The position numbers and the translations under genes are program-made. A stretch of 34,652 nt of DNA from a virus. Position 1 is the first letter of the stretch; each line of letters begins with the position of its first letter. Positions 3,997 through 21,721 of the stretch are shown in pieces. The notes below the pieces were generated by a model that was given only the letters and a program-made list of their open reading frames with translations, was not told the DNA's origin and did no database searches. Location of the stretch: the IMG/VR virus record IMGVR_UViG_3300032665_000117, positions 1 to 34,652 of that record, one strand, 5' to 3'.

Positions 3997-6344
3997 TTAG
4001 ACCCCCAAGTTGCTTAGGCGAGTAGAAAGCAAGTTTCTAATCGCGGTGTCTTGAGTGATCGCTTGCGCTTGAGCGAATTTAACCGCCAAAGTCGCGTTTT
4101 GAGCGAGCATTCCTGAATAATATGGATCACGATAAATCAGCTGCATCGAATAGCCATCTTGATTTATGTGTGTTACGGCTTGTTTACCAACAGTTGTGTT
4201 GTAATAAACGTCTTGTCCGTTTGCAGAAGCACCACGTGCAACAGCAGCCTCCGAGCTGGTAAGGATACGGACGTTAAATACCGATCCATACTCAGATGGA
4301 AGAGCTGAGCTATTGTTAGGATAGTTCCATTGGTTCAAGAAGCCAGATCCAGTAAGACCATCAAAGTCAGACTGAAGCTCAGTTGATGACAGCATAAAAT
4401 ATGCTGATCGCACTGGGCCTGTTCCGAATCGATCCATACCTTCGATACCACTCATAAATTTATAAGCGTTATTTGTATCGAGTGTTGTGGCAACTAAGCT
4501 GAAGTCAGAGACTCCGAGGTTAGTTGGGTTATCACCATTGGATCCGCCGCCAGCATTCAATGTTGATGCAGCAGAAACGATGTAGTCGCGCAAAATTAAA
4601 TCTTCTGCTTGACGCCAACTTGTTACTCACCTTTCGGTGGGATTGGTCATTTCTGCCAACCTCTGCAATTTCATTTATTGTTGCAGATCGGACTATCGCA
4701 TACGCTATTGTTAGCGTCCTCTGGATTTAGTCTCTCAGGCTGCATTTAAGCTTGCCCCTTGTCACCCCATCGGGCTTCCAAGTCGATTACCAAAGGTTTA
4801 ATGGCCACTTGTCAAGATGGCCACGGCGAGACGCTCGGATACCCAAGCTAACACCAATTATCTCTCGCCTAAGAGGGCGTGTTATTCAGCATTACTATTT
4901 CTCTATAGCAGTTCTCACGATATTCTTTTTCTTTTTCAGGAATTTTAGCCAATCCATTCGTAGGATTGTAATTTCTACAAAAGTTTAATATCTTTATCGC
5001 TTGAATTGCTTTGATCTGAAGATAAGGAATACATCTCTTCAAAAACTCTATGGTATCGGATCTTGATTGAATCGAAAATCTAAATGCAGCCCCTCTTAAA
5101 GCTGTATTAGCTTTCACAATCGATAATCCTCCATATTCACAGTTTGAAAGGATATGCTTTATTGATCGTTCGCTAACCATAGTCAATAAGATTTTCGGTC
5201 TAAACTTAATTAAATCCGATTTTTGCCTGTTTTGACCTGCTTTACGAACCGATCTTTCTATAGAAAATGATCCATCTGTGTCCATAATTCCAGCAACATA
5301 AGCCCAAAAATAAGGACAATTGCTGTTTACTCTAAGGACATTATCTAACGTGTAAGACTCGATTTTTCTATTTAAATTCAAGTCTTTGCATAATTGATAA
5401 TAGTTCTTTCCTTCTAATGGATTTGTCAAAAATTCCATAAGTTGGTCAGCGGAATCCTTCTTCAAAACTAGATGGTCGCGAACCTTATTTAAAAGATTCA
5501 AACATCCTTCTTTCCCTTGAAGCATCCATTTCCAGATGATACGATCATTTTCTTTTTTTGGCTTATCGCATGCAATAGTGCCTCCAAACAAATTATTTAA
5601 ATACACAGATGCCTGTTTCATTGAGTTGTGAAATTGGATTAAGGGAAGCATTTTCTTTGATCCTTTCCTGATTCCTATCATTCCATCTCCATCAATTAAT
5701 CCTGCTATATAAGCCATCATTTCCTTTTCTTCCGGATCTTTCATATAGTCCTTTTTTCGGCTATATTATAGACCCACCATCATTATGCTGCAAGTATAGA
5801 ACCCTCTTGATCCTGAAGGATCACCTGTTATTGATGATACACCCAGTTCCAAAAAAAGCCATTTGTGCCATCGATTATATCTCTCTGGGGCACTTGTGCC
5901 GGAGGCATACTGTTACTTCTTTAGACCCCTTGCAGCCGCAAGGCGGGAATCCCTCTTCGGAGACTCCTCTCATAGTTACCTATGAGATCAGACTATCGCA
6001 TCCCATTTCTGGGCCTCTGAATTTAGTCGTTCAGGCTGCACACTTTCGTTGCTTGCCCCTTGTTGTCCTGCTTAAGCAGCCAGGAGATCCAAGTCAATTA
6101 TCAAAGGTTTTACATCGACACACCGGAGTTCTTTATCGATCCCACTATTACCCAATTGGATAGTAGGCGGTTGCAAACTTCTTGGACGCATAAAGCGGCA
6201 AGTAGTACCACCATTTGAAGGCATAGAAACCTTATCGCAAACGGTGATGTAGTTCATAGTTGGGGTCGGCACATATAACATTGCAGGCGCAAGCGATTGC
6301 AAGATAAGCGGTCCGAGATTCCCCGTATTAGTAATCATTGACAT
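3997..6344 (-). CDS. Major capsid protein (N4-gp56-like), split into four exons
   Basis: The exons on the minus strand are 6344-6135, 5905-5801, 4854-4817 and 4618-3997, giving about 324 residues when joined. Exon 1 begins MSMITNTGNLGPLI and ends LGNSGID. Exon 2 begins PPAQVPQRDIID and ends QVILQDQEG. Exon 3 is VLAWVSERLAVA plus two bases. Exon 4 starts WRQAEDL and runs through RDYIVSAAST to TRLSNLGV. Together these reconstruct the conserved capsid helix and core. Boundaries follow the reading frame and intron P1 pairing; the exon 1/2 acceptor (after 5906) is chosen because it keeps frame. Exon 2 has an extra base near 5868-5869 and a missing base near 5829-5830, leaving an in-frame TAA, so it may be an assembly error or a damaged gene. 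The start has only a weak ribosome binding site. Confidence 0.8.
4619..4816 (-). ncRNA. Group I intron C, ORF-less (198 nt)
   Basis: P1 is GGCCAU (exon end, 4822-4817) paired with GUGGCC (4808-4803), with a U-G wobble at the 5' splice site. P10 is CAA in the guide paired with UUG at the start of exon 4. P7 is GACUA (4732-4728) with UAGUC (4695-4691). P8 is a hairpin with an ACGCUA/UAGCGU stem. The P9 hairpin is CCACC-GAAA-GGUG. The intron ends in G (4619). The core closely matches intron A (CCUUUG-UAAU-GACUUGG, AGGGGCAAGC, GCGAUAGUC). Splicing at these sites keeps the capsid reading frame. Confidence 0.85.
4869..5744 (-). CDS. LAGLIDADG homing endonuclease (two-motif monomer)
   Basis: A 291-residue protein with two LAGLIDADG motifs: IAGLIDGDG near residues 13-21 and VAGIMDTDG near residues 150-158. 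Each is followed by a beta-rich DNA-binding half, so it is expected to act as a monomer on an asymmetric site. Both motifs keep the acidic metal-binding residue. The start has a good ribosome binding site (AAGGA, 4 nt before ATG) and a sigma70-like promoter just upstream, so it can be expressed independently of the capsid transcript. Its last codons (NNTPS and the TAG stop) overlap the guide-like sequence of insertion B. It is not an intein, because stop codons separate it from the capsid frame. Confidence 0.93.
   Translation of the reverse strand: MKDPEEKEMMAYIAGLIDGDGMIGIRKGSKKMLPLIQFHNSMKQASVYLNNLFGGTIACDKPKKENDRIIWKWMLQGKEGCLNLLNKVRDHLVLKKDSADQLMEFLTNPLEGKNYYQLCKDLNLNRKIESYTLDNVLRVNSNCPYFWAYVAGIMDTDGSFSIERSVRKAGQNRQKSDLIKFRPKILLTMVSERSIKHILSNCEYGGLSIVKANTALRGAAFRFSIQSRSDTIEFLKRCIPYLQIKAIQAIKILNFCRNYNPTNGLAKIPEKEKEYRENCYREIVMLNNTPS
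4871..4884 (-). other. Internal-guide-like sequence of insertion B
   Basis: The minus-strand 14-mer TAACACGCCCTCTT is complementary to the ligated junction of exons 2 and 3, except for G opposite the splice-site U, which makes the usual group I U-G pair. It overlaps the final codons and stop of the LAGLIDADG gene. A 7-bp stem, GGCGAGA (4869-4863) with UCUCGCC (4831-4825), starts just after it and encloses the acceptor site. Confidence 0.75.
5765..5793 (-). promoter_or_regulatory. Candidate sigma70 promoter of the LAGLIDADG gene
   Basis: A -35 TTGCAG (5793-5788), a 17-nt spacer and a perfect -10 TATAAT (5770-5765) lie about 20 nt upstream of the endonuclease ATG, inside the insertion. This would uncouple endonuclease expression from the late capsid transcript. 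Confidence 0.5.
5906..6134 (-). ncRNA. Group I intron A, ORF-less (229 nt)
   Basis: P1 is AUCGAU at the end of exon 1 (6140-6135) paired with GUCGAU (6119-6114), with a U-G wobble at the splice site. P7 is GACUA (6028-6024) with UAGUC (5995-5991). P8 is CCCA-GAAA-UGGG. Core strings are nearly identical to intron C. Peripheral hairpins follow toward the 3' end. The acceptor is placed after G5906 because only that site keeps the capsid frame (GID then PPAQ). An alternative after AACAG would match the end of intron C better but shifts frame. Confidence 0.85.
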
Positions 6345-7964: not shown

Positions 7965-8918
7965 ATGGCATCGATTACCCATGTTCAAGCTCCGCACTCA
8001 ATGGAAAATCCCTATCTTAGTGAACAAATTGCAGCGAAAGAAAAATTCCAACTATTATCTGATGTTCCAGGATTGGAAGCACTGAGCCTCCGGATAAAAG
8101 GAGGAACATCATGGAGCTTGTATCGTGAAGGATATTATCCACTCTATCGCTCACTAGCCATTATGGGATTGGGATATTTAGCTGGAGCAGGATTGGGTGT
8201 GGCTGTGTTAGGACGCTCCGCATCTATTGAAAAGATATTTTGGCTTTCGCAAATCCCAGTAACATTTAGCGCCTGTATTGAACATTTTGTCACAAAAAAT
8301 AGTGACGAGTATCATAAAGCCTACACCACAAATCCCTATAAAGAAATTTCAAACCGTCTTTTTGAAGAAGATGGGATTTTGCAAAAATTTAGAGGCAATG
8401 GGTCTGGAGAACTATTAATCGAACCATATATTTCTCCTATTCCTCCGCATGATATAATCTATGAGAAACAACAGCTTGATGCATTGGAAAAGCAGACACC
8501 TGGATATATTCGAGACATGTACAGAAACAGGGGAGAACGTATTTCAAGGGACCTTTTCAAGCCTTGGGCCGAAGCTGGATTGATTGTGAATGCTCGCATC
8601 GAACATCTTCTCAATAAAGAGATCGAACATCTTCCTCCTCAGCGATTAAATGAAGAAAAGAAACTGGAGAAAATCTATGTGACGAATGCAAAACTTGCCC
8701 ATAATTTCTATCTACATTACTACGATAAAGCTCTAAATGAAGCCAAAGCCATCAACTCGCATCACGCTAAACATTTCTCATTAACATTCGGAAAGAATGT
8801 AAATGATTTAAACTGGGACCTCAATTGGAGAAATCTTCTAGACGATCGACTCGCAGATGTCTATAGACTTGAAGAGATTCGCAAATCGATAGAGGAGTAC
8901 AAGAAAGAGCCCTTTTAA
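7965..8918 (+). CDS. Hypothetical 317-residue protein with one hydrophobic segment
   Basis: The start ATG has a GAGG site. Residues about 66-87 (AIMGLGYLAGAGLGVAVLG) are hydrophobic and Gly-rich and could span or insert into a membrane. The rest is mostly helical and charged, with many His, Glu and Lys. No catalytic motif was seen. It is the second gene of a two-gene unit that ends in a good terminator. Phage structural genes flank it only on the other strand, so an accessory (moron-like) role is possible but unproven. Confidence 0.7.
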   Translation: MASITHVQAPHSMENPYLSEQIAAKEKFQLLSDVPGLEALSLRIKGGTSWSLYREGYYPLYRSLAIMGLGYLAGAGLGVAVLGRSASIEKIFWLSQIPVTFSACIEHFVTKNSDEYHKAYTTNPYKEISNRLFEEDGILQKFRGNGSGELLIEPYISPIPPHDIIYEKQQLDALEKQTPGYIRDMYRNRGERISRDLFKPWAEAGLIVNARIEHLLNKEIEHLPPQRLNEEKKLEKIYVTNAKLAHNFYLHYYDKALNEAKAINSHHAKHFSLTFGKNVNDLNWDLNWRNLLDDRLADVYRLEEIRKSIEEYKKEPF

Positions 8919-9119: not shown

Positions 9120-9575
9120 CTAAATTTTGCGAATGAATCGATTTCGCATGAGTTGAACTTTCATGTTTGTATCAGTCCTTTTTTTCTTTCTCAAGTTATC
9201 ATCAGCCTTCAAATATTGAAGGTTTTCAAGACAATGTTTTCCTCCATCATTCAATGGAATAACATGATCAACATGGCATCCACAGGGTTTATTAAGATAA
9301 AAAGATCTTATCTTACGAAATTCTTCTTTTGGTACATCTCTAAGTCCATCAATCCTATAGAATCCATGAAAAGCCGATCGCATTTTTTGTTGTTTTAAGC
9401 CCTTTTCACTTTTAAAGTATTTCCTTCTATTTTCTTTATTGCTTGGAAGATGATTTCTTCGATAATTCTTTTGCTTGGCAGTAATATTTTCTTGGATGAT
9501 TTTTTCTTGAACTTGTGGTGCCATAAATTTCTTTGCATGAGATATAAATTCTTTTAGTTCGTTATAATCCGGCAT
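9120..9575 (-). CDS. Free-standing HNH endonuclease
   Basis: A 151-residue basic protein. The C-terminal third has the HNH core CGCHVDHVIPLNDGGKH followed by LENLQYLKADDNLRKKK, with the conserved His pair and the Asn of the ENLQ motif. The N-terminus is helical and Lys-rich. The upstream 130 nt (9576-9705) are very AT-rich and hold no gene. It is probably a mobile endonuclease; no intron was seen around it. Confidence 0.88.
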   Translation of the reverse strand: MPDYNELKEFISHAKKFMAPQVQEKIIQENITAKQKNYRRNHLPSNKENRRKYFKSEKGLKQQKMRSAFHGFYRIDGLRDVPKEEFRKIRSFYLNKPCGCHVDHVIPLNDGGKHCLENLQYLKADDNLRKKKRTDTNMKVQLMRNRFIRKI

Positions 9576-21448: not shown

Positions 21449-21721
21449 ATGGGAAAATATCAATATCATTTCGGAAGAAAATTCTTTCAACGCAAAAACG
21501 GCTATTGGCAATGTACCAAGGACAGTACTCTGTATGCCCATCGCTGGATTTGGATCAATCACTTCGGTGAAATTCCCGATGGCATGGACATCCATCATCG
21601 GGATAATGATCCAAGCAATAACGACATATCCAATCTACTAATGCTTACTGCATCACAACATGTAAAATTTCACTGGCGGGTGAAAAAATTCGAACCTAAT
21701 CAGCTTCTCTTAGCAATATGA
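21449..21721 (+). CDS. HNH homing endonuclease (small, phage type)
   Basis: A 90-residue protein with AHRWIWINHFGEIPDGMDIH followed by HRDNDPSNNDISNLLMLT, the HNH_3-type core with the His-His pair and Asn. It is inserted between terminase and portal, and its last 67 bp are duplicated 282 bp downstream. No strong ribosome binding site is visible. Confidence 0.9.
   Translation: MGKYQYHFGRKFFQRKNGYWQCTKDSTLYAHRWIWINHFGEIPDGMDIHHRDNDPSNNDISNLLMLTASQHVKFHWRVKKFEPNQLLLAI

Follow-up and report, generated by a model that had tools for sequence, protein, structure and literature searches.

The major capsid gene carried by the virus record IMGVR_UViG_3300032665_000117 contains an insertion, B, for which the best reading is a group I intron that works with the core of another intron. 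From comparison with related capsid genes we consider it probable that B, as a non-autonomous group I intron, depends for its excision on the core of the next intron, C, to which a bridging helix would link it, and that it is removed before C excises itself. The 34.7-kb record was analysed over its whole length of 34,652 nucleotides (hereafter the window). The initial annotation had suggested that one core might serve two successive splicing reactions, a proposal now strongly supported by comparative sequence evidence, from which we infer splicing itself. The anatomy of B, the absence of a core, the co-variation of guide and helix and the strict co-occurrence of such insertions with a full intron are established at the level of sequence.

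The window encodes a P22-like portal and terminase, and its major capsid gene lies on the minus strand as four exons split by insertions A, B and C. Exon 1 (6135–6344, from the ATG to GID) is continuous with exons 2–4 in intron-free relatives and is followed by intron A (5906–6134), a complete group I intron of 229 nt with its guide, GGTGTGTCGAT, at 6124–6114. Spliced alignment then delimits exon 2 (5801–5905), with a +1 shift at residue 82 and a −1 shift at residue 95, and exon 3 (4817–4854, VLAWVSERLAVA..), which lies between B (4855–5800, 946 nt) and C and is 38 nt long, as originally described. Intron C (4616–4816), a complete group I intron of 201 nt with its guide at 4808–4801, would provide the shared core. 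Exon 4 (3997–4615), also placed by spliced alignment, encodes a product resembling the phrog_1357 major head protein (2e-10). A tblastn search of the full capsid protein against cultured-phage records gave one weak match of 27% identity to MW202713, annotated as a major capsid protein, and exon 4 alone had no match in these records. GTDB matches fell in six MAGs from six unrelated phyla and were rejected as an indication of the host, being attributed to binning noise. Near the capsid region, the window also has HNH endonuclease genes at 9120–9575 (minus strand) and 21449–21721 (plus strand), a sign of a heavy homing-gene load.

Searching IMG/VR and GTDB contigs recovered the capsid gene at 210 loci (114 distinct), with peat, soil and freshwater among the source samples, and insertions were mapped by a purpose-written spliced protein-to-DNA alignment. 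Of the 114 distinct genes, 55 are free of insertions and so fix the exon boundaries; the remaining ones hold one to six insertions each, 154 in all. Part of this set was found through guide, intron or micro-insertion patterns and is biased towards genes that have them; the first 80 loci, collected without those patterns, follow the same rules. Downstream of the capsid region, one relative, L090, also has an int-alpA RNA (RF02996) above the family threshold, at 8815–8882.

The 5′ splice site of B lies after 5801 (minus strand), between CAAGAGGGT and TCTATAC, and its 3′ splice site after 4855 (minus strand), between GATAATTG and GTGTTAGC. Both sites had been predicted to restore the capsid frame exactly, and the joined frame, ...QDQEG/VLAWVSERLA..., is indeed the uninterrupted sequence of intron-free relatives, showing that the exon boundaries of B are correct. 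The 14-nt internal guide described earlier, TAACACGCCCTCTT at 4884–4871 (minus strand), is likewise borne out: it consists of TAACAC, which forms a P10 of 6 bp that co-varies in relatives, and GCCCTCTT, which forms a P1 of 8 bp, and none of 300 dinucleotide shuffles of B equalled it. As is characteristic of group I introns, the splice-site U faces a G in P1 and the terminal base of B (4855) is G; between guide and acceptor is a short tail, GGCGAGAGATAATTG, at 4869–4855. The rest of B is largely taken up by an ORF for 291 amino acids (4869–5744, minus strand) whose product matches PF00961 (1.3e-8), confirming its assignment as a LAGLIDADG homing endonuclease. The ORF sits between the 5′ splice site and the guide, that is, in the P1 loop, and its final codons (NNTPS) extend into the guide. 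In the complete introns of L067 and of L024 (codon 123), homologues of this endonuclease likewise occupy the P1 loop, so B has the layout of a complete intron minus the core. A promoter-like TTGCAG-N17-TATAAT, recognised by inspection as a consensus match only, precedes the endonuclease ORF at 5765–5793 (minus strand) and overlaps the LAA tag described below.

To search for cores we used a covariance model, R1, built from 29 complete sister introns aligned from P3 to P7, in which helices P3, P4, P5, P6, P7 and P8 all show compensatory changes, including the P3/P7 pseudoknot and its bulge; 99.2% of the cells in this alignment are paired, versus 35–42% after sliding by 1–3 columns. With filters off, R1 found exactly two cores in the window, at 4798–4688 (minus strand; E 2e-23) in intron C and at 6109–5988 (minus strand; E 1e-20) in intron A, and it detects cores throughout the relatives. 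Both introns have the P3/P7 pseudoknot, P4–P6, P8 and a bulged P7 with a G-C pair that define group I. Under the same settings, no P3–P9 core with a P7 guanosine site was found within B (4855–5800) at E≤10. The initial annotation had seen no catalytic core in B and had named a complete separate core in this interval as the result that would count against its reading; the first observation stands, and the core is absent. B is not a group I intron in the sense of a self-contained ribozyme. A search with the Rfam Intron_gpI model (RF00028), also proposed at the outset, agreed in leaving B blank, but it missed the true cores of A and C as well, neither of which reached the gathering threshold. The Rfam scan of B, which gave nothing relevant at E≤5, is worthless on its own because Rfam misses those real cores, and Rfam scans were rejected as a core test. 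RF00028 is blind to this group I subgroup despite its canonical core, and surveys relying on it will overlook such introns.

Core-less insertions of 32–987 nt recur at capsid codons 88, 92 and 104, the last being the site of B. Every one of them ends in G and has a P1 of 6–9 bp and a P10 of 4–9 bp, and the guide ranked 0 or 1 against 300 shuffles in every insertion tested at the three sites. Among relatives with an insertion at codon 88, pair three of P10 takes the forms A-T, T-A, C-G and G-C, P10 tracking the exon as ACTGG/CCAGT, ACAGG/CCTGT, ACGGG/CCCGT and ACCGG/CCGGT, and at codon 104 GTGTTA/TAACAC alternates with GTATTA/TAATAC. Besides the 946-nt B, codon 104 is occupied by mini-insertions of 33 nt (L007) and 49 nt (L040) and by endonuclease-deleted forms of 93 nt (L122) and 325 nt (L118). 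These patterns bear on the idea that B is a dead core-less relic, with the capsid gene not expressed or exons 2 and 3 joined in some other way. The anomalous +1/−1 frame pair in exon 2 of the window would fit such a relic, but co-variation of guide and exon extends across many lineages, the capsid sequence flanking B on either side is conserved and the arrangement is kept in many relatives. We consider a relic very unlikely: recurrence at three sites, this co-variation, the full intron that follows each insertion and the retargeted, co-varying stem described below all disfavour it.

All 43 complete genes that have a core-less insertion also have a full intron downstream of it, whereas only 5 of 65 genes that have no such insertion have a full intron in this part of the gene (Fisher p 6e-25, a value overstated by the non-independence of related loci). 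The distance between the two is 9 to 56 codons, and the full introns at codons 97, 99, 101, 117 and 122 (37 cases) are always preceded by a core-less insertion. A few partner introns escape R1, having ORFs in their loops or another class of core; those in question that were inspected do have a core. The codon-99 partners (L092, L100 and L101) are of another type, and the one in L100 is matched by RF00028 and has an ORF on the opposite strand.

Insertion and partner are linked by a helix. The tail of the core-less insertions, the 15–28 nt that separate the guide from the terminal G, base-pairs with exon sequence downstream, and in 40 of 46 pairs, with partners at codons 97, 101, 117, 120, 122 and 144, the helix ends 7–10 nt before the 5′ splice site of the partner, thus adjoining the exon bases of the partner's own P1. 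With the codon-99 partners the distance from the helix end to the splice site is 14 nt. In the window, the 7-bp stem noticed earlier is present, formed by GGCGAGA (4869–4863, minus strand) and TCTCGCC (4831–4825, minus strand), the latter abutting the 8 exon nt that form P1 of intron C, and it co-varies in relatives, where GGCGAGA/TCTCGCC is replaced by GGCTAGA/TCTAGCC or GGCGAGT/ACTCGCC. The target of the tail changes with the partner: for an insertion at codon 104 it is TCTCGCC, TCTAGCC or ACTCGCC when the partner is at 117, TAGCTATGC when it is at 120 and TGCGCCAAGC or TGAGACAAGC when it is at 122, and in each case the tail matches. Compensatory changes are seen even at the farthest partner site (GAACC/GGTTC, GATCC/GGATC). 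The helix register was picked for maximal pairing, for which the permutation test allows; tails swapped among genes scored lower, none of 5000 permutations in the two largest classes being as good, and the mean score of the tail-exon helix was 20.0 versus 12.9 ± 0.3 with shuffled tails. Some helices are weak when taken singly (L041, L084, L108 and L225). In the complete introns of this family P1 is followed after 5–6 nt by P3, the guide joining P3 directly with no P2, and the bridging helix is therefore an extra element. We take the core-less insertion and the downstream core to be one working unit, for which this helix is the strongest evidence.

The nearest natural case is the tiny intron of the Phialophora type. 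Small degenerate group I introns of 63–78 nt occur in the rDNA of Phialophora, Porpidia and Arthonia, and splicing of those from Phialophora (63–75 nt) is reported to depend on no more than P1, P7, P10 and base pairing with the 3′ exon, and reportedly requires a longer 3′ flank (PMC3160393). B and the mini-insertions might in the same way be minimal self-splicing introns with no need of another core, as they share P1, P10 and a helix between the middle of the intron and the 3′ exon, every part except P7 (PMC3160393). The rDNA introns, however, keep P7, end in U and have no second core invoked for them (PMC3160393), whereas the core-less capsid insertions end in G, have no P7 that we could find and are always accompanied by a core-bearing intron downstream. 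B in particular has a terminal G and no P7-like element by the core model, and assignment to the degenerate small introns of the PaSSU type was rejected. Moreover, the helix follows the position of the partner and not that of the acceptor, and we regard independent self-splicing as distinctly unlikely.

Under the shared-core reading, B would supply the parts of a substrate (5′ splice site, P1/P10 guide and terminal G) together with a mobility gene, but no ribozyme, and the core of intron C, located 57 nt past the B acceptor, would carry out both transesterifications on B. Pairing of the B tail with the end of exon 3, beside the P1 segment of C, would tie the P1/P10 domain of B to the C core, placing the 3′ splice site of B in a loop and bringing the foreign P1/P10 to the place beside the core where complete introns hold their P1. 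Since both splice sites of B lie within P1/P10, a core that docks this domain could perform both steps. Excision of B would remove the bridging helix, upon which C's own P1 could dock and C excise itself; B would have to leave first, because the excision of C removes the core. It is known that a P1 hairpin can serve as a substrate when supplied apart from the core. In engineered spliceozymes, one group I core acts on two splice sites and removes a foreign intron of which it is no part (PMC4094466); those systems are artificial and act in trans, whereas the present one is natural and apparently acts in cis, and its core would afterwards excise the intron that contains it. A core acting in trans, be it an excised A or C or another copy, would make the cis geometry irrelevant, and the ability of group I cores to react in trans is established (PMC4094466). 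That alternative seems to us very unlikely, as the next intron in cis is the one whose 5′ splice site the bridging helix adjoins, and insertion and full intron strictly co-occur in the same gene.

The insertions also have a distinctive coding property. Reading from exon 2 into the 5′ end of B in the capsid frame gives SILAA-stop (TCT ATA CTT GCA GCA TAA; 5783–5800, minus strand), and similar read-in tags include LDLLAA in A (6134–6072, minus strand) and EQYALAA in L141. Among 134 distinct read-in tags, 80 end in AA-stop and 46 in LAA-stop, compared with 1.7% and 1.2% in shuffled insertions. Mini-insertions that have no stop of their own shift the frame such that the downstream exon reads RLAA-stop, and insertions near the capsid N-terminus have no such tag. 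The ssrA tag ends in LAA, and translation of unspliced RNA would therefore probably yield a protein marked for ClpXP; the read-in tags are probably a degradation signal for the unspliced capsid product. We found no paper describing read-in degron tags of this kind in the open literature. Tags resembling ssrA hint at a way in which introns could be borne in a highly expressed structural gene of a phage, where translation is coupled to transcription. They also weigh against translational bypassing, in which ribosomes would hop over the insertions as in T4 gene 60. Mini-insertions roughly 50 nt long, located in a phage gene with homing endonucleases nearby, have a superficial likeness to that system, but in-frame read-in finishes in a degron-like tag, insertion sizes range from 32 to 987 nt and guides co-vary with exons. 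Matched take-off and landing codons are absent (for example, GGT versus TAG, AGG, TTG, AAG or ACG), for which reason a bypass element of the gene 60 type was rejected, and we consider hopping extremely improbable.

A further anomaly is confined to the genes that carry intron A, which sits at codon 69: all of these (nine distinct genes plus copies), unlike all others, have 1, 2 or 4 extra bases at codon 82. These bases (G, AG, TG, TTAG or TAAG) always end in G and follow a second ATCGAT; they are found in the window, where spliced alignment (+1 at residue 82) identifies the extra G at 5869 (minus strand) as a putative 1-nt micro-intron, and in L119, L120, L122, L124, L126, L133, L141 and L142. 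The guide of intron A can form P1 with the codon-82 ATCGAT and four P10 pairs with the GCRC that follows, and this P10 co-varies (GCAC/GTGT and GCGC/GCGT); a contiguous P10 of this guide at A's own acceptor is absent. Dropping the 2- or 4-nt extras restores the capsid frame. The 1-nt lineage (the window, L119, L122 and L124) in addition lacks a base at codon 95, in the window between 5830 and 5829 (minus strand), where an added G would restore an invariant Glu codon (GAA or GAG); no guide for this missing base was found in any of the four sequences. Sequencing error at codons 82 and 95 was rejected, the same pattern occurring in independent contigs with no other frameshift among the 114 capsid genes, and an intron A extending from codon 69 to 82 with PPAQVPQRDIID inside it was rejected because that stretch is conserved, with synonymous changes only. 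We tentatively entertain, with somewhat more doubt than conviction, that one core serves a graded series of full introns, core-less guide-bearing introns (32–987 nt) and guide-less micro-introns of 1–4 nt at codon 82, the last removed with the guide and core of A. If so, the codon-82 micro-introns would be the smallest introns known.

Phage group I introns with LAGLIDADG or other homing endonucleases resemble B in their P1/P10 guide, the G.U at the 5′ splice site, the terminal G and the loop ORF, and they resemble the partner introns described here in having a normal P3–P8 core; they differ from B, which is core-less, the core being in the intron that follows on the far side of the 38-nt exon. 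Non-autonomous introns that obtain catalytic parts from elsewhere are also found among degenerate group II introns, the group III introns of euglenoids included, but these differ in their branching chemistry and in their use of spliceosome-like trans factors. Tandem group I introns with exon skipping likewise place two introns around a short exon in one transcript; in that case neither intron lacks a core and skipping of the exon can occur (PMC10136302), whereas here one is core-less and the exon is coding and kept. In the open literature, subscription papers being outside the search, we found no natural precedent for a shared core, the only ones being engineered systems. If the proposed mechanism is correct, these would be natural non-autonomous group I introns, in which catalysis is parted from the removed intron within one gene and a co-varying helix links the two. 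A step of this kind, in which many introns share one catalyst, is as a rule proposed only to explain how the spliceosome arose from group II introns; here it would be seen for group I. The arrangement is found in dozens of phage genomes, in which phage gene callers and Rfam overlook these introns entirely.
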